A DNA stretch of 64,000 nucleotides from Planctomycetota bacterium (GTDB taxonomy: Bacteria > Planctomycetota > UBA8742 > UBA2392). The first letter of the stretch is position 1. Each line of letters begins with the position of its first letter. The stretch is taken from NCBI GenBank assembly GCA_020848275.1, contig JADLAK010000065.1, forward strand, positions 62,001 through 126,000, in the 5' to 3' direction. The position numbers and the translations under genes are program-made. Of the stretch, positions 29,579-38,728 are shown one piece after another. The notes beneath the pieces were generated by a model. It saw nothing but the letters and a program-made list of their open reading frames with translations. It was not told the DNA's origin and searched no databases.

Positions 29579-29858
29579 TCGTCACAGTTGCATCCCTAAT
29601 GTGGCTAAAGCCTTGCATCCATGCGGGGCGGGCGTACGGTGGGAACTCTTAAACTGACAGAAATCGTGAAGATTATTAGTCACGGGGCGAACCTTGGCCG
29701 CTAAGGCCCGTTTGGAATTCGAGTAATACCCGAAATCCGGCCTAATTGGCCCGAAAGTTTTTCCGCGGTTCGCCGCGAGGAATGTTCGACTGACGCGCGC
29801 AGTGATCCCGGGGAAGACCTGCACGCACCAGCGGACAAGGAATACGAAGGAGGGGGTC
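29579..29858. other. Intergenic leader, 280 bases
   Basis: No ORF is supported. The segment has mixed composition and ends with a strong ribosome site (AAGGAGGGGG) for the next gene. It probably holds that gene's promoter, which I cannot place. Confidence 0.4.
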
Positions 29859-31547
29859 GTGGCACAACAAGAGCAAAACTACGAGGAGCAGCCCGCTGAT
29901 CAGCAGTATTACGATCAGCAGCAGGCCGAGGAAATGGCCGCCGGTGAAGCCCAGGCCAAGGAACTCACGGCGCTGGCGACGGTGCCGTGGATCGCCATTG
30001 CGTTTGCGGGCCACATGCTCCTGATCGTGGTCGCCTGGTTCATGGTTCCGGTGATGCCGCCGGGCAACAAGATCGAGGTGATCTCGAGCCAGGTCGACAC
30101 CAAGCCCTTTCCGCCCGAGCCCGAACGCAAGCCCGAGGAAGAAGTTGAATATCCCAAGGACGAGCCGCCGACTGAGGACCCGACGGAAGACCCGAAAATC
30201 GTCGAGGACGCCCAGGACGACCGCAACGAAGACAAGACCGACTCGCCCAACAAGTCGCTCGCTGAAAACCCGAACAACGACCCGTCAAACGCGGAATCGC
30301 CGCACCCCAACCGTGGCCCCAACAGCTCCGTCGGTCTCGGCGGCGGCGGCGGCGGCGGCGGCGGCCGTGGCGGCAAGGGCGGCTTCGAAAATCGCCGCGC
30401 CCGCGGCGGCGGCGGCATCAAGCTCGACCGCGTGAAGGCCGCGCTTGAGTGGCTCAAGGATCACCAGAACAACCTGGGCTTCTGGAGCGCGACGCGCTTC
30501 AGCGACGACACCAAACGCACCAACGCCCGCAAGACCTACAACGTCGAGTTTGTCAACGTCGGCCAGGCCAAGGGCGACATCGGCTGGGATCAGTCGGTCG
30601 ACATCGGCCTGACCGGCATGGCCCTGCTGGCCTTTGTCGGCGCGGGCTTTGACCACAAGCAGGGCGAGTACAAGGAAGCCTGCCGCCGCGCCGTCATGTA
30701 TATCCGCGGCCAGCAAAGTCCTGATGGCTGCTACGGCGCCAAGGATGACGAACACTTCATGTACAACCACGCCATCTGCGCCATGGCCATGGCCGAGGCT
30801 TTCGGCCTCTCGGGCGACAACCTGCTGAAGGGTCCCGCCGAAAACGCGGTGCGTTTCATCCTGCAGGCGCAGAACCCGGGCCTGGGCTGGCGCTACGGCG
30901 TGCGCCCCGGCGTCAACGACAGCTCGGTCACGGGTTGGATGGTGCTGGCGCTCAAGAGCTGCAAGATGGCCGGCCTCGAGTTCGACACCACGCAGTGCTA
31001 CGCCGATGCGGCGAAGTGGCTGGACTCGGTCACCGCGCCCTACAGCGGCTATCCCAAGACCGGCTACAACGAACCTGCGGGCAACAACGCCAGGCTGCGC
31101 GCCGCGCAGGATTATGAAAACAACCCGTCGATGGACGCGATCAACATCATGTCGATGCTGTTCATGAACCAGCCGGGCAAAGATTCCAAGAACCGCGACC
31201 TGCAGGCCCAGGCGAAGGCCTGCCACGAGTTCCTGCCGGCATGGGAGCAGAAGAAGATCGACTATTATTACTGGTACTACGCCAGCCTCGCTCTCTTCCA
31301 GATGGGCGACACCTACTGGAAGAAGTGGGACGACGCAATGTCAAAGGTGCTGATGGCGCACCAGCGCGGCTTCATCGAAGGCGACAAGGGCAGCAACAAG
31401 GATACCCTCGACGAGCACGGCAGTTGGGACTCCGTGGACGCCTGGGGAACTGCCGGCGGACGAGTGTACAGCACCGCCATCAACTGCCTGACGCTCGAGG
31501 CGCACTACCGCTACATGCGCCTGGGTGAAAAGAAGGATCCTCACTAA
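29859..31547 (+). CDS. Membrane-anchored squalene-cyclase/prenyltransferase-fold protein (paralog 1)
   Basis: The GTG at 29859 directly after AAGGAGGGGGTC is preferred to the listed start at 29802. The 562-aa product has a Gln-rich cytoplasmic head and one membrane helix (~residues 45-67, WIAIAFAGHMLLIVVAWFMV). A long acidic/proline linker follows (PEPERKPEEEVEYPKDEPP), then a Gly run. The remaining ~360 residues form an alpha/alpha barrel of the squalene-oxidase/prenyltransferase repeat type: ALEWLKDHQNNLGFWSAT, QSPDGCYG, NPGLGWRYG. The catalytic DXDD of true cyclases is not seen, so a binding or structural role is likely. The head plus linker resembles TonB/ExbD-style energy-transducing anchors. 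It is paralogous to the gene at 31804 and ends in a strong terminator. Confidence 0.85.
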   Translation: MAQQEQNYEEQPADQQYYDQQQAEEMAAGEAQAKELTALATVPWIAIAFAGHMLLIVVAWFMVPVMPPGNKIEVISSQVDTKPFPPEPERKPEEEVEYPKDEPPTEDPTEDPKIVEDAQDDRNEDKTDSPNKSLAENPNNDPSNAESPHPNRGPNSSVGLGGGGGGGGGRGGKGGFENRRARGGGGIKLDRVKAALEWLKDHQNNLGFWSATRFSDDTKRTNARKTYNVEFVNVGQAKGDIGWDQSVDIGLTGMALLAFVGAGFDHKQGEYKEACRRAVMYIRGQQSPDGCYGAKDDEHFMYNHAICAMAMAEAFGLSGDNLLKGPAENAVRFILQAQNPGLGWRYGVRPGVNDSSVTGWMVLALKSCKMAGLEFDTTQCYADAAKWLDSVTAPYSGYPKTGYNEPAGNNARLRAAQDYENNPSMDAINIMSMLFMNQPGKDSKNRDLQAQAKACHEFLPAWEQKKIDYYYWYYASLALFQMGDTYWKKWDDAMSKVLMAHQRGFIEGDKGSNKDTLDEHGSWDSVDAWGTAGGRVYSTAINCLTLEAHYRYMRLGEKKDPH

Positions 31548-31597: not shown

Positions 31598-31803
31598 GGC
31601 TGGAGCATTTCCAATTGCTCTGTTGAAATCCGTCTCCCCCGCGGGGCGCGTAGGAGCTCGCCACACGACGTTGTCAGCCCAGCTACCTCCGACCGGAACT
31701 GAGAAGTCCTCGGCGTGCTGGGCAGATTCGCTCTTTCAAATGGGCTCCGCCGCGAACCGTCCGGGTTTCCCGCCGTTTGAACATGCAACCGGAGAACCTT
31801 CCC
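31598..31803. other. Intergenic region between the two cyclase-like genes
   Basis: About 200 bases after the terminator. It contains the long-range stem GCCCAGC/GCTGGGC around 31677-31723 enclosing a smaller hairpin. No ORF is supported. The promoter of the next gene must lie here. Confidence 0.4.
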
Positions 31804-33366
31804 ATGCGTGGCGTGCGCGGACCCTTGCTGCTGCTTGTACTGTCGGTGCTCGCGCTGATCGGCGTTTCGCTGTTGCTCGTGCCGCGCGCACGAAACACGG
31901 AACACCGCAGTGAAGACCTGGCGGCCACGGGCGATTCTCAGGGAGTTCCCATCGCACCCGGCTTCGGCAACGAAACCGCTGCGCCGGCCAGCAACCGCAA
32001 ACCCGCGGACGCCGCCGAAGTCGCGCCCGGGCCCGAGGCCGCCGGCAACCGGCTCGCCACAACAGCGCCCGGCCCGGCAAGCGACGACCCTGCGCAGGCG
32101 CAACCCCCTTCCGGGCCTGACGCACCCGAGCCTGACGATGGCGCGCCGCCGCAAATCGGCCCATCGACCCCCGTGGAGGAAGACCCCGAGACCGACCCTG
32201 TGCTCCCGGGCAAAGGCGTCAAAATGCGCGTCAACAGCAAGCTCGATTGGCTGGCTGCGCACCAGCACGACGCGGGCCAGTGGCGGGCTTCGCTTTTCGG
32301 CGAGGACACCAAACGCAAGTCCGCCACGCGCTCGTACAACGCCGAGCTCGAAAACATCGGCATCGCCAACGCCGATGCGGCGGCCGACGAAACCTACAGC
32401 GTCGGCGTCAGCGGGCTCGCGCTGCTGGCCATGAGCGGCGCGGGCTACGACCACAAGGAAGGCCCTTACAAGCCCGTGGTGCGCAAAGCCCTGCTGAAAC
32501 TCAAGGAAGCGCAACGCGAGGACGGCTGCCTTGCCGACCCCGCTTGCGGCGGCGTGTTGCTGAACCACGTGCTCGCGCTGGCCGCGTTTGCCGAGATGTA
32601 CGCGTTGTCGGGAGACAATCTGCTCAAGACGATTGTCGAAAAAGGCGCGGGTTTCCTTGCCGAGTGCCAGCGCGACAATGGCGGCTGGGGCGACGAGGCG
32701 GACGGCGCGGAAAGCAACACCCGCGCCACGGCCTGGGCGGTGCTGACTTTCAAGACCTGCAAGATGGCGGGCATCGAACGCGACTACGAACCCATGAAGC
32801 GCGGCGCCGCGTTCATGGAGTCGCTGACGGTCGGCGAAGGCGACGAAATTCGCACCTGGTATGACGAGCGCAACCAGTTTCGCCCCGGCATCACAGCCAA
32901 CGCGTCACTGGACGCCATGAACGTGGTTTGCCAGTTGATGACGGCGCGCATGAACCGCGACCACCCGACGATCAGGGCGCAGGTCAAACGCATCGCCGCG
33001 CATTTGCCGAGCTGGACTATCGGCGACGTCGACCTGGAATGCTGGTACTGGACAGGCCTCGCGGTGTTCCAGTCAGGCGACACCCCGGTCGGGAAGCGAA
33101 GCGGCGCGGACGAGACGAGGGAGCCGCCGGAACTTACGGCCGGGCAGAAGTGGCTTGAGGCGGTCACAACCGTGCTGACGGAACACCAGCGCGGGTTTGC
33201 TCCCGCTGACAAACAGGCCGAGGCGACGGCGGAAACCCTGGACGAGTACGGAAGCTGGGACGCCGTGGATGTCTGGTCGCGCCAAGGCGGCCGCGTCTGG
33301 ACCACCGCCATGGCCTCGATCGTCTTGGACATCACCTTCCGCTATATGCGCGTCAGCGGCAGGTAG
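31804..33366 (+). CDS. Membrane-anchored squalene-cyclase/prenyltransferase-fold protein (paralog 2)
   Basis: The ATG at 31804 is chosen over upstream in-frame starts because GGAG precedes it and it begins the membrane helix (MRGVRGPLLLLVLSVLALIG). The 520-aa product has a short cytoplasmic head, one helix, and a ~120-residue Pro/Ala/Asp-rich linker. The barrel domain is parallel to that of the gene before: KLDWLAAHQHDAGQWRAS, YDHKEGPYKPVVRKAL, REDGCLADPA, NGGWGDEADG, LDEYGSWDAVDVW. Shared phrases (TFKTCKMAG versus ALKSCKMAG; GSWDxVD) show clear paralogy. No DXDD catalytic motif is visible. The domain would lie outside the cytoplasmic membrane. Confidence 0.85.
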   Translation: MRGVRGPLLLLVLSVLALIGVSLLLVPRARNTEHRSEDLAATGDSQGVPIAPGFGNETAAPASNRKPADAAEVAPGPEAAGNRLATTAPGPASDDPAQAQPPSGPDAPEPDDGAPPQIGPSTPVEEDPETDPVLPGKGVKMRVNSKLDWLAAHQHDAGQWRASLFGEDTKRKSATRSYNAELENIGIANADAAADETYSVGVSGLALLAMSGAGYDHKEGPYKPVVRKALLKLKEAQREDGCLADPACGGVLLNHVLALAAFAEMYALSGDNLLKTIVEKGAGFLAECQRDNGGWGDEADGAESNTRATAWAVLTFKTCKMAGIERDYEPMKRGAAFMESLTVGEGDEIRTWYDERNQFRPGITANASLDAMNVVCQLMTARMNRDHPTIRAQVKRIAAHLPSWTIGDVDLECWYWTGLAVFQSGDTPVGKRSGADETREPPELTAGQKWLEAVTTVLTEHQRGFAPADKQAEATAETLDEYGSWDAVDVWSRQGGRVWTTAMASIVLDITFRYMRVSGR

Positions 33367-33451: not shown

Positions 33452-35032
33452 ATGACGCGCTCAAAACGCAATCGCGGAAAAAACAAACCTGTGGCTGGGG
33501 CTTCCAGCCCCGGCACGCCAGGCGTCCATACACCGTCGGCGACCAATGCGCTGGGGCCAGGAGACCCCAGCCGCGCGCCCGATCCCACCGCGCCCACGGC
33601 ATCGAAGGCCACGGACCAAATTAAAAAGCCCGCGCCGCTGCCGCGCCCGTTTGCGGCGCTGGGCGCCGATTACGGCCAGTTGTTGAAGATGCGCAACGTG
33701 CGCGTGCTGATCGCCTTTGCATGCGTGGTGATCGCGCTGATTTTCGGCTTCTACCTGTCTGAAATTTTCGTGCCGCTGTTGTTTGCGCTGGGCGTGGCCT
33801 ACGTGCTCAACCCGTTGGTCGACGGCCTCGAGAAAAAGGGTTTAACGCGTGCGCGCGCGGTGCTGTTCGTTTTCGCGGGCTTCGTTGCCGTCTCGCTCGC
33901 TTTTGGAAGCTGGTTCGTGACTTCGATTGTCTCCGACGTGCGGCAGATCGGCTCGCAGATCGGCGACGTCATCAACGACGTGCGTGAGCACCAGAAGGAA
34001 TGGGTCGCGGGCTGGAACCAGAACGCGCCCGGGTTCATGCGCATCAGCGAAGATGTCGAGTTCGATTCCGTGCTCGAGGTCGTGAAGGACAAAGTCGCGC
34101 CGCAACGAACCGCCGTGGGCTCGCCGGAAGAAAAACAGGCGGCGGCGGCGCTGGCGGGGGTGAAGGTCCAGTACCTTGGCCAGTTGCAGGCGCTGGACAC
34201 CAACCACGACCTCGAGCTCACGGAGGGCGAGCTGAGCGCCAGCGCGATCAAACTTGCCGACGTCGACAAGAACGAAAAGGTCAGCATCGACGAATGGTAC
34301 CTGCTGCACCGCGTACCCGGCGACAACGCGGGCGAGCGCACCATCGCGCCCGAAGCCCGCGCCGTGGCCGAGGGCGTATTTGGCTTTGTCAGCAAGGGCC
34401 TGCTTTGGACGCTGGGCCTGGTCCTCTTCATCACGCTGGTGCCGATCTACACCTGGTATTTCATGATCGGGCTCGACGACATGAGCGAAAAAATCGAGGC
34501 ATGGCTGCCGGGCCGCCACCGCGAACGCAGCATGCGAATCCTGCGCGAGATCGACGGCATGGCCAAGGCGTTCTTCCGCGGTCGCCTGCTGGTTGTGCTG
34601 ATCATCAGCGTGCTCTCGACGATCCTGTTCATGGCCTTTGGCGTGAAGTACGCGTTTTTGCTTGGCCTGATGTCGGGGCTTGGCGTTCTCATCCCGTACT
34701 TCAGTTTCGTCGCGGGCTGGCTGCCGGCGCTTCTGCTCATGTCAATTGCGCCCAACGTGAACTGGGTTTCGATCGGCGGCATGAGCGCAATCTTCTTTGT
34801 CATCCAGGCGTTTGAGCAATATTTCCTGACGCCCAGGCTGCTGGGCAACGCGGTCGAGCTTCACCCCGTCACGCTGCTGGTCGGCGTGTTCGTGATGTCG
34901 GCGCTGTTCGGGTTTTTCGGCGCGTTGCTTGCCGTGCCGCTTACGGCGATTGCCAAGACGCTGGGCCGCGAGTTCGTGCTACCGTATTTCAAGGCGCTGG
35001 CCGACGAAAAACCCCCGCCCGCAACGTCTTAA
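33452..35032 (+). CDS. AI-2E family (PerM/UPF0118) transporter with inserted EF-hand pair
   Basis: A 526-aa membrane protein; typical family members have ~350 residues. The AI-2E permease fold is recognised from FVPLLFALGVAYVLNPLVDGLEKKGLTR at the N-terminal side and, at the C-terminal side, YAFLLGLMSGLGVLIPYFSF, FEQYFLTPRLLGNAVELHP and GALLAVPLTAIAK. Two additions explain the length. The first ~65 residues are a disordered Pro/Ser/Ala head encoded partly by repeat-type palindromes. The second lies in the large extramembrane loop, residues ~245-290, where DTNHDLELTEGE and DVDKNEKVSIDE fit the 12-residue calcium-binding EF-hand loop. Family members export small molecules or ions; the substrate is unknown. 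It may be calcium regulated. Confidence 0.88.
   Translation: MTRSKRNRGKNKPVAGASSPGTPGVHTPSATNALGPGDPSRAPDPTAPTASKATDQIKKPAPLPRPFAALGADYGQLLKMRNVRVLIAFACVVIALIFGFYLSEIFVPLLFALGVAYVLNPLVDGLEKKGLTRARAVLFVFAGFVAVSLAFGSWFVTSIVSDVRQIGSQIGDVINDVREHQKEWVAGWNQNAPGFMRISEDVEFDSVLEVVKDKVAPQRTAVGSPEEKQAAAALAGVKVQYLGQLQALDTNHDLELTEGELSASAIKLADVDKNEKVSIDEWYLLHRVPGDNAGERTIAPEARAVAEGVFGFVSKGLLWTLGLVLFITLVPIYTWYFMIGLDDMSEKIEAWLPGRHRERSMRILREIDGMAKAFFRGRLLVVLIISVLSTILFMAFGVKYAFLLGLMSGLGVLIPYFSFVAGWLPALLLMSIAPNVNWVSIGGMSAIFFVIQAFEQYFLTPRLLGNAVELHPVTLLVGVFVMSALFGFFGALLAVPLTAIAKTLGREFVLPYFKALADEKPPPATS
33493..33571. repeat. Repeat-type palindromes inside a coding region
   Basis: GGCTGG/CCAGCC (33493-33509) and GCTGGGG/CCCCAGC (33550-33571) resemble the intergenic hairpins of this window, for example that at 43000. 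They lie in the N-terminal disordered head of the AI-2E permease. Either they were inserted and translated, or the true start is further downstream. Confidence 0.55.
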
Positions 35033-36481: not shown

Positions 36482-36566
36482 GCATCGACCTCTAGGTCGA
36501 TGCGCCGTTGCCCATAGTCACCGCCGATGGCGGCGACAAAAGCACACGGACCTGGAGGTCCGTGCT
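36482..36566. repeat. Pair of short perfect hairpins
   Basis: GCATCGACCT-CT-AGGTCGATGC (36482-36503) and ACGGACCT-GG-AGGTCCGT flanked by AGCAC/GCT (36541-36566). Both contain ACCT...AGGT at the loop end, so they look like diverged copies of one unit. They follow the comF-like stop codon. Confidence 0.75.
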
Positions 36567-36711
36567 ACGGTTTCCAGCGTCCGGTAACTCTCTATCGGAC
36601 GCAATTTGTGCAAACTTTTGCCCTCTCCAACCAATCTTTTTCTCAACCGGGTTGCCGATTCCTGCCGAAGACAGGTTTGCGCCGCATTGGCGCCGTCATC
36701 GGAGATCGCAT

Positions 36712-37659
36712 ATGTCATCGCGCAACAGTCGTCGTGGCCGCGGCCAAAACCGCGGAGTGATCCTCATCGGGGGCGCAGTCGTCCTCGTGGGCCTCGTAGT
36801 CGGCACCGTGTTCATTTTCAAGCCGAGCGGCGCCAATACTAAACCGGCGGACAACGCCGTCGCCGACGCGCTGCCGGAAGCGGGCAACCCTTCGGCCCCG
36901 GCTGCGGAGAACAAGCCCAGCGTCAACCTTTCGCAGCTTGCGAAGGTCGCCGCCGAGGCGCGCGCCACGATCGCGCTGCCGCAAGGTGATGCCCGCGAAA
37001 AGTCGCTGCGCGAAACCTACGGCGCGCTGGCCGCGCTGCTTGAGGGCCCGCTGCCGACCGACGAACGCGAGAAGTTGATCGAGCCCTTCCACGCCGTGAC
37101 AACGGAGCTTTTCCTCAGCCCGACGCACAACGAATTCAGCGTCAACTATGTGGTGAAGGGCGGCGACAAGATTGACAGCATCGCCCGCAGCGCGGGCATC
37201 AGCAACAACCTGCTGACCGACCTCAACGCCATGCCGCGCGGCTTCAACAAGCTACGCATCGGCGACAACATGAAGCTGCCCAAGGGCAAGCCGCACATCG
37301 AGGTGCGCAAGCAGGACTACTGCTGCAGCGTCTATCTCGGCGATTACCTGGTACGCCAGTACGTCGTCGCCCACGGCAAGAACAACAACACGCCTGAAGG
37401 CCGCACCACCATCAAGGACATGCAGGTGAACCCCGACGCGGAAGCCCGCGGCCCCGGCGACCCGCGCGCCGAGATGAAACTGCGCTGGATCGGCCTGACG
37501 CCCTACAACGACCGCACGGGCATCGGCTTCCACGGCACCAAGGAGCCCAACAGCATCCCGGGCCAGACCTCACGCGGTTGCATCCGTATGAAAGACAACG
37601 ACGTGGTCGAACTCTACGACTTCGTCCGCATCGGCAACGCCATCGAAATCAAAGCCTAG
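36712..37659 (+). CDS. LysM domain L,D-transpeptidase (YkuD) with N-terminal membrane anchor
   Basis: The start is the ATG at 36712, with GGAG upstream, beginning MSSRNSRRGRGQ; the listed ORF from 36508 has an unlikely head. The 315-aa product has one membrane helix (~residues 15-40) and a spacer. A LysM domain follows (NYVVKGGDKIDSIARSAGI...LRIGDNMKLPKG) that binds peptidoglycan, then a YkuD catalytic domain with HGTKEPNSIPG and the active-site motif SRGCIRM. Such enzymes make 3-3 crosslinks or attach proteins in the periplasmic murein. It is paralogous to the next gene. The presence of active-site Cys and His suggests activity. Confidence 0.92.
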   Translation: MSSRNSRRGRGQNRGVILIGGAVVLVGLVVGTVFIFKPSGANTKPADNAVADALPEAGNPSAPAAENKPSVNLSQLAKVAAEARATIALPQGDAREKSLRETYGALAALLEGPLPTDEREKLIEPFHAVTTELFLSPTHNEFSVNYVVKGGDKIDSIARSAGISNNLLTDLNAMPRGFNKLRIGDNMKLPKGKPHIEVRKQDYCCSVYLGDYLVRQYVVAHGKNNNTPEGRTTIKDMQVNPDAEARGPGDPRAEMKLRWIGLTPYNDRTGIGFHGTKEPNSIPGQTSRGCIRMKDNDVVELYDFVRIGNAIEIKA

Positions 37660-37765: not shown

Positions 37766-38728
37766 ATGCGTCACTTCCTTGCCTTTGTCGCACTGACTGT
37801 GTTCTTCTCGGGCTGCACCTTGACCGGCAGCCAGGGCGGCGATGCCGTCCGTAACGAAGAACCCGCGCCGGCCAAGGCGGTCGTCGAGCAGCCCACGACC
37901 ACGCCCGCCGATGACGGCCACTTCGGCGACCCGACCTTCGAGAAGGAAGTCGTTTCCGCCGAGCCCGAAACGCCCGCGATCACCGCGCCCGCACGCGACA
38001 CCGACCTCACGCAGGGCCTCGACCTGAAGGCCAAGGGTGAACTCCGCGCCGCACGCATGTCGCTCACGTTGGCGCTCAGCCGCAAGCTGCCGGCCGCCGA
38101 CGAAGCGGATGCGCTCAGCGCACTGGACGAGATCAACGGCAAGATTTTCCTTAGCACCGGTGACGACGGCGACATGCAAATCTACGAAGTGAAGAGCGGC
38201 GACACGCTGGGCGCTATCGGCGCAAAGTTCAAGACCACCGCCGAGTTCATCAAGCGTCTCAACGAAATGAAGAAGGACACGATCTTCGTCGGCCAGCGCC
38301 TGCACCTGCCCAAGGGCGAGTTCTCTCTGGTAGTGCGCAAGGAACGCTTCGTGATGGACCTGAAACTCGACGGCGCATTGATTAAGCGGTACCGGGTTGG
38401 CTTAGGCCTCAACAACAGCACGCCTGTGGGCGAGTTCGTGGTCAAGAACCGCATCCCGGAGCCCGCTGACGGCAGTTGGCCCTACGGCCACGAGAAGCAC
38501 CGCCTTGGTTCGCGCTGGCTCGGGCTCAAGAGCGACGCCGGCCACAGGGGTTACGGCATCCACGGCTGCCCCGCGAGTGAAAACGGCGCAATCGGCGGCG
38601 AGTGCTCGCAGGGCTGCGTGCGCCTGACCAACGAAGACGTCGAGGAAATCTACGACATCATCCCCATCGGCGCCAAGCTTACGGTGGTCAGCGACAAGTC
38701 GCTGGTTGAGAAACCCACCCGCCGCTAA
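37766..38728 (+). CDS. LysM domain L,D-transpeptidase, lipoprotein
   Basis: A 320-aa lipoprotein: MRHFLAFVALTVFFSGC ends in a lipobox, with Cys at about residue 17. After a Pro/Ala/Glu spacer, a helical stretch and a LysM domain (MQIYEVKSGDTLGAIGAKF...IFVGQRLHLPKG) comes the YkuD domain with HRLGSRWLGL, GIHGCPASENGAIGG and the catalytic SQGCVRL. It is expected to act on murein from the outer leaflet of the inner membrane or from the outer membrane. It lies 107 bases downstream of its paralog at 36712 and ends in a strong terminator. The insertion PASENGAIGGEC between the two active-site motifs contains extra Cys residues. Confidence 0.92.
   Translation: MRHFLAFVALTVFFSGCTLTGSQGGDAVRNEEPAPAKAVVEQPTTTPADDGHFGDPTFEKEVVSAEPETPAITAPARDTDLTQGLDLKAKGELRAARMSLTLALSRKLPAADEADALSALDEINGKIFLSTGDDGDMQIYEVKSGDTLGAIGAKFKTTAEFIKRLNEMKKDTIFVGQRLHLPKGEFSLVVRKERFVMDLKLDGALIKRYRVGLGLNNSTPVGEFVVKNRIPEPADGSWPYGHEKHRLGSRWLGLKSDAGHRGYGIHGCPASENGAIGGECSQGCVRLTNEDVEEIYDIIPIGAKLTVVSDKSLVEKPTRR

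Follow-up and report, generated by a model that had tools for sequence, protein, structure and literature searches.

A conserved EF-hand pair, predicted to bind calcium, in the extramembrane domain of a planctomycete AI-2E-family permease

An AI-2E-family permease encoded in the window, the 64,000-nucleotide stretch of a Planctomycetota contig analyzed here, carries a pair of EF-hands predicted from sequence and structural model to bind Ca2+. The preliminary description of this DNA had proposed an AI-2E-family permease with two EF-hand loops lying between its N- and C-terminal permease blocks, and both points were borne out: the 526-residue product matched PF01594 (AI-2E_transport) over both blocks (192.8 bits versus a curated Pfam cut-off of 34.3), an EF fold was recovered by modeling, orthologues agreed, and both loops fell between the two PF01594 stretches, the C-terminal one of which spans residues 296–504 (model positions 116–322). 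The PF01594 search placed the permease at a single locus in its own genome (features in Table 1). We favor, with moderate confidence, the reading that the pair is a calcium clamp in the extracytoplasmic TM3–TM4 domain, although Ca2+ binding itself is a prediction. The interpretation given in the preliminary description is partly supported; planctomycete AI-2E proteins contain several calcium-type loop modules, of which the EF pair is one.

Table 1. Features of the permease gene and its EF-hand insert (positions in the window)
Feature	Position	Strand	Basis
AI-2E family permease gene with EF-hand insert	33452..35032	+	ORF, 526 aa; PF01594 E 1.1e-56, two stretches
Basic Pro-rich N-terminal extension, aa 1–82, predicted cytoplasmic	33452..33697	+	charge counts; low pLDDT
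N-terminal permease block, TM1–TM3, about aa 83–156	33698..33919	+	hydropathy peaks 88–118, 138–154; basic loop 123–135
Extramembrane domain TM3–TM4, aa 157–312, predicted extracytoplasmic	33920..34387	+	acidic, between basic cytoplasmic-type loops
EF-hand 1 entering helix, aa 225–248	34124..34195	+	H225–248 in full model; H10–33 in insert model
EF-hand loop 1, DTNHDLELTEGE, aa 249–260 (D249–E260)	34196..34231	+	D1 and E12 in 15/15; beta bridge at position 8
Inter-loop linker, 9 residues, aa 261–269	34232..34258	+	helix 263–269 in model
EF-hand loop 2, DVDKNEKVSIDE, aa 270–281 (D270–E281)	34259..34294	+	D1 and E12 in 15/15; beta bridge at 277
EF-hand 2 exit helix, about aa 280–285	34289..34306	+	H279–285 in full model; H64–71 in insert model
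C-terminal permease block, about aa 313–526	34388..35029	+	PF01594 match; most invariant columns of family alignment

The protein resembles other AI-2E/PerM/UPF0118 members (PF01594; Escherichia coli TqsA and YdiK, Halobacillus andaensis UPF0118) in both permease blocks and in its overall hydropathy pattern, and differs from them in a TM3–TM4 domain of about 158 residues that holds the EF pair, compared with about 65–80 residues in loop-less relatives (e.g., L018, L020, L048 and L050). From hydropathy and positive-inside charge counts, we infer a topology with the N terminus inside, three membrane passes and the insert outside. Family means for K+R and D+E were 11.7 and 3.8 in the N-terminal extension and 14.9 and 27.9 in the acidic domain 157–312, while residues 338–380 are basic. 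A cytoplasmic N terminus was found by PhoA fusion in the H. andaensis UPF0118 protein (PMC7221264). TqsA (7nb6) was the best PDB match of the whole AlphaFold model (E = 1.3e-5; TM scores 0.28/0.39 with a low-confidence model), which had a mean pLDDT of 57.5, a pTM of 0.34, a poor membrane part and pLDDT below 50 over residues 1–75, and is too weak for placing the EF domain relative to the membrane part. The insert was among its best-modeled regions, with block means up to 81.

Both loops carry the expected residues at ligand positions 1, 3, 5, 9 and 12, and to that extent their earlier designation as canonical 12-residue calcium loops stands; position 6, however, which is usually Gly in EF-hand loops, is non-canonical in both, being Leu in loop 1 and Glu in loop 2. 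The strict PROSITE EF-hand pattern calls for Gly or another turn-tolerant residue at this position, so that both loops of the window protein fail it; loop 2 passed in 8 of the 15 family members and loop 1 in none (0/15). Counted from start to start, the loops lie 21 residues apart, and a linker of 9 separates them; the separation of 23 residues reported previously was a miscount. Given the non-canonical position 6, Ca2+ affinity may be low, or one of the sites may be structural without metal.

The EF-hand assignment draws on family profiles and structural models, no Pfam EF-hand model having reached its cut-off in the window protein. EF-hand_1 scored 12.2 bits with the whole protein and 16.7–16.9 bits with the insert alone against a cut-off of 25.4, and Pfam-based annotation would therefore overlook the pair. 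Across the family, EF-hand_1, EF-hand_6 and EF-hand_7 each matched 13/15 members at E ≤0.1 (best 1.3e-7), and a profile of the insert (A4) matched 271 PDB sequences at E ≤0.1 (best 6.6e-8), nearly all of those among the matches listed being named as calcium-binding or EF-hand proteins. Modeled alone by AlphaFold, the insert adopted a helix-loop-helix-loop-helix arrangement with pLDDT 86–89 over residues 21–70 and short strands at positions 7–8 of loop 1 and 8–9 of loop 2. The paired EF-hand architecture thus forms in the model, as two helix-loop-helix units with their loops linked via a short beta bridge. Foldseek searches with this model returned EF-hand proteins for essentially all of the best 50 PDB matches (EFhd2, calmodulin, centrin, lanmodulin and others); among the matches listed, probabilities were mostly near 1 and many superposed at 1–2 Å rmsd, although the short query kept E-values at 0.05 or higher.

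Orthologues of the permease (n = 14, 46%–56% identity to the window protein) were found in the bacterial family to which the window belongs, and all keep both loops, including the ligand residues that the preliminary description had expected in close orthologues (14/14). The 87-residue insert (aa 216–302) has only six invariant columns across these 15 sequences (A15, Q31, D34, E45, D55 and E66), four of which (D34, E45, D55 and E66) are positions 1 and 12, the +X Asp and −Z Glu, of the two loops. In all 15 sequences, positions 3 and 5 are D, N or S throughout both loops (D or N in loop 2), position 8 is L, I or V (V or I in loop 2) and position 13 is hydrophobic or aromatic (W or Y in loop 2), while position 9 is D, S, T, N or E with the exceptions of one Q and one K, both in copies of loop 1. 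Position 6 is Leu or Met in 15/15 copies of loop 1 and Gly in just 8/15 copies of loop 2; Pro occurs at position 2 in none of the family's loops. A single-sequence scan of genome contigs found no relatives. An alignment query yielded 14 Planctomycetota MAG loci, which were not added to the orthologue count because their sequences are apparently identical to those of the 14 orthologues.

The same genomes contain other short-linker EF pairs (EF-hand_5, PF13202) with the 21-residue start spacing, such as DTNNDGKLDRTEIPADRLKEIDADGDGFVSLREF in L085, and this shared spacing identifies the insert as an ordinary short-linker EF pair placed inside a permease. Elsewhere, however, many such pairs follow one another in a row, whereas the window protein has one pair inside a polytopic permease, and its loop 1 differs from those pairs in having a hydrophobic position 6. 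L085 itself (G000 contig C104) is a large open frame; its roughly 14 EF-hand loops, many of them paired at 21 residues, come after a Pro-rich stretch and a segment judged FecR-like by eye. Lanmodulin, whose EF loops are closely spaced like those of the window pair and carry Pro at position 2, was among the best structural (8fnr, 8dq2) and profile (8fns, 6mi5) matches of the insert; it is a secreted lanthanide binder, and its Pro at loop position 2 is absent from the window family. EfhP of Pseudomonas aeruginosa likewise has two EF-hands and a probable periplasmic location, but it is a small, independent protein whose position 6 is Gly, whereas the window pair is part of a transporter (PMC9132961). 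Loop chemistry of the same kind also occurs outside EF-hands, in the Dx[DN]xDG loops of thrombospondin and many secreted proteins, as described in one survey (PMC3123361); the loops of related AI-2E proteins, often spaced by 15–21 residues, belong to this non-EF kind, whereas those of the window protein, with flanking helices and Glu at position 12, are true EF-hands. A term search of that survey gave no mention of transporters or permeases (PMC3123361). We found no literature joining AI-2E with EF-hands, and the preliminary description likewise knew of no described calcium-gated AI-2E/PerM transporter; papers containing both "AI-2E family" and "calcium" concerned other subjects, as judged by title and abstract.

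A tree of the permease blocks with the insert removed (65 rows) placed the EF pair at a single origin (support 100/99) within the window's family, and L018, a loop-less AI-2E protein of the same class, as sister of that family (95/90). We had also considered the pair as a remnant of ancestral loops once present throughout the clade; this idea was dropped, as the tree shows a single gain and the sister L018 is without a loop.

Calcium-type loops are present in other AI-2E permeases of Planctomycetota, a phylum in which AI-2E matches were found in 248/294 genomes. Among 93 delimited TM3–TM4 inserts, taken from many Planctomycetota families, plus a few inserts from other phyla, with the window's family and L019 left out, 28 contain Dx[DN]x[DN]G cores, compared with 0.66 expected by shuffling (maximum 4). 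Loci outside the family comprised the best or split PF01594 hits together with the top matches of a profile (A5) derived from loop-bearing proteins, and this selection, made partly by similarity to loop-bearing proteins, means that 28/93 is not a prevalence. Loop-bearing Planctomycetota AI-2E permeases have 1 to 13 such loops at the same site as the EF pair (e.g., DLNADKAWEPGEPLLRDLDADGAYDPSY in L117 and DHNKDGVVDPGEVFSDLDGDGRWD in L100; further examples are L171 and L187), and none of the surveyed AI-2E proteins has a core in its C-terminal block. On the tree, the Dx[DN]x[DN]G label requires 11 changes, with well-supported branches forcing at least 5, which indicates that calcium-type loops came into or left the same spot several times, the EF pair being a separate gain. 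Pfam reported no calcium-binding family in any of eight loop-bearing relatives scanned.

At one extreme, L019 (1459–3426, − strand), from another Planctomycetota family, is an AI-2E permease in an open frame of 669 residues; its membrane blocks enclose 13 Dx[DN]x[DN]G cores, spaced for the most part at 15 residues, and Pfam reports AI-2E alone. Another AI-2E lineage (L175, L176, L180, L181, L182 and L030) has one loop, DEDGDGxRRxGLAEQ or similar, in which position 9 is not acidic. Nine AI-2E proteins or fragments from outside Planctomycetota (L048–L055 and L057; insert delimited in six) had no loops, a set too small for phylum specificity to be claimed, and a plasmid search covering other phyla found nothing. 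Gene neighborhoods of the loop-bearing relatives outside the family revealed no shared partner, with noisy ORF calls in the high-GC DNA.

The neighbors of the permease in the window's family point to no clear pathway. Those conserved in most of the 14 MAG loci encode a squalene-hopene-cyclase-like repeat protein, a NUDIX hydrolase, a ComF-type phosphoribosyltransferase and two L,D-transpeptidases. In the window, two tandem squalene-hopene-cyclase-like repeat proteins (29802–31547 and 31777–33366) adjoin the permease, and a homologue of the first is near the permease in 13/14 MAG loci; tandem genes encoding LysM and L,D-transpeptidase domains lie downstream (36508–37659 and 37766–38728), with homologues of both near the permease in 10/14. 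An AI-2E permease match was obtained in every one of the 16 genomes of the family except G007, and PF01594 matches in 13/14 well-known control genomes. No LuxS match was found in the 16 family genomes, several of which are incomplete, versus 5/14 control genomes, which makes AI-2 export doubtful. AI-2 is thus unlikely to be the substrate, and the family name AI-2E is probably misleading in this bacterial family. Other members of the permease family have been assayed for Na+(Li+)/H+ antiport in the E. coli laboratory strain KNabc (PMC9134010).

If the pair acts as a clamp, Ca2+ from the envelope or surroundings would fill one or both loops, and the filled loops would be locked to each other via the beta bridge; the clamp would hold the extracytoplasmic domain in the shape needed by the transporter, and the protein would be stable and active only if outside Ca2+ were adequate. 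Ca2+ is usually plentiful outside the cytoplasm, and for a domain predicted to lie there gating is no more likely than a structural role. The non-canonical position 6 and the absence of any loop from the sister protein L018 count against a clamp. The pair could instead be a sensor in which changes in external Ca2+, or in a different di- or trivalent ion, switch the permease on or off, making transport calcium-gated. Such a sensor would fit the strong constraint that preserves all main ligands of the paired EF-hands, the non-canonical position 6 could shift affinity down to the range of outside Ca2+, and the probably periplasmic EfhP binds Ca2+ with an affinity of 13.7 µM and is regarded as a relay of Ca2+ signals (PMC9132961); we nonetheless regard a sensor as unlikely, since Ca2+ is usually high outside the cytoplasm, the predicted location of the domain, relatives without loops exist, and the conserved neighborhood contains no partner or conserved Ca2+-signaling gene.

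Still less probable, in our estimation, is an EF fold that works without metal, or with Mg2+ or other ions, purely as a spacer or protein contact. The Leu or Met at position 6 in every copy of loop 1 and the sub-threshold Pfam scores of the window protein would suit it, but a spacer would not need positions 1 and 12 to be invariant and positions 3, 5 and 9 to be almost always oxygen ligands across 15 divergent sequences. The reading of the loops as fortuitous matches within a disordered, acidic stretch outside the membrane is refuted by their conservation and fold: the segment is indeed acidic, and shuffling the window insert gave a single loop in 1,448 of 200,000 trials, but a pair with a 9-residue linker arose in 0/200,000 and is present in the window protein and 14/14 orthologues, the fold is confidently modeled, and both profile and structure searches match EF-hands. 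Two published observations are among the grounds on which we favor the calcium clamp over a sensor or a metal-free or non-calcium fold: according to the survey by Rigden and colleagues, Dx[DN]xDG loops serve structural or regulatory functions and are biased toward proteins that are periplasmic, secreted or at the cell surface (PMC3123361), and in EfhP alteration of +X and −Z eliminated Ca2+ binding (PMC9132961).

Calcium-type loops in other Planctomycetota AI-2E permeases, missed by Pfam in 8/8 of those scanned, are new here, and they recur at a single site within the phylum, a pattern suggestive of selection there for dependence on Ca2+. Their presence at this site in many relatives suggests that Ca2+ stabilizes or controls the loop-bearing planctomycete permeases. 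More tentatively, and as a proposal that we consider improbable rather than remote, Planctomycetota may have a broad class of calcium-dependent permeases, an AI-2E lineage whose extracytoplasmic domain acquired EF pairs or tandem Dx[DN]x[DN]G loops on several independent occasions at the same place and in which outside Ca2+ controls transport; if true, Ca2+ control via extracytoplasmic AI-2E loops would be a form of transporter control hitherto undescribed. AI-2E permeases are very widespread yet poorly understood, and an extracytoplasmic domain predicted to bind metal would offer an experimental handle on them.
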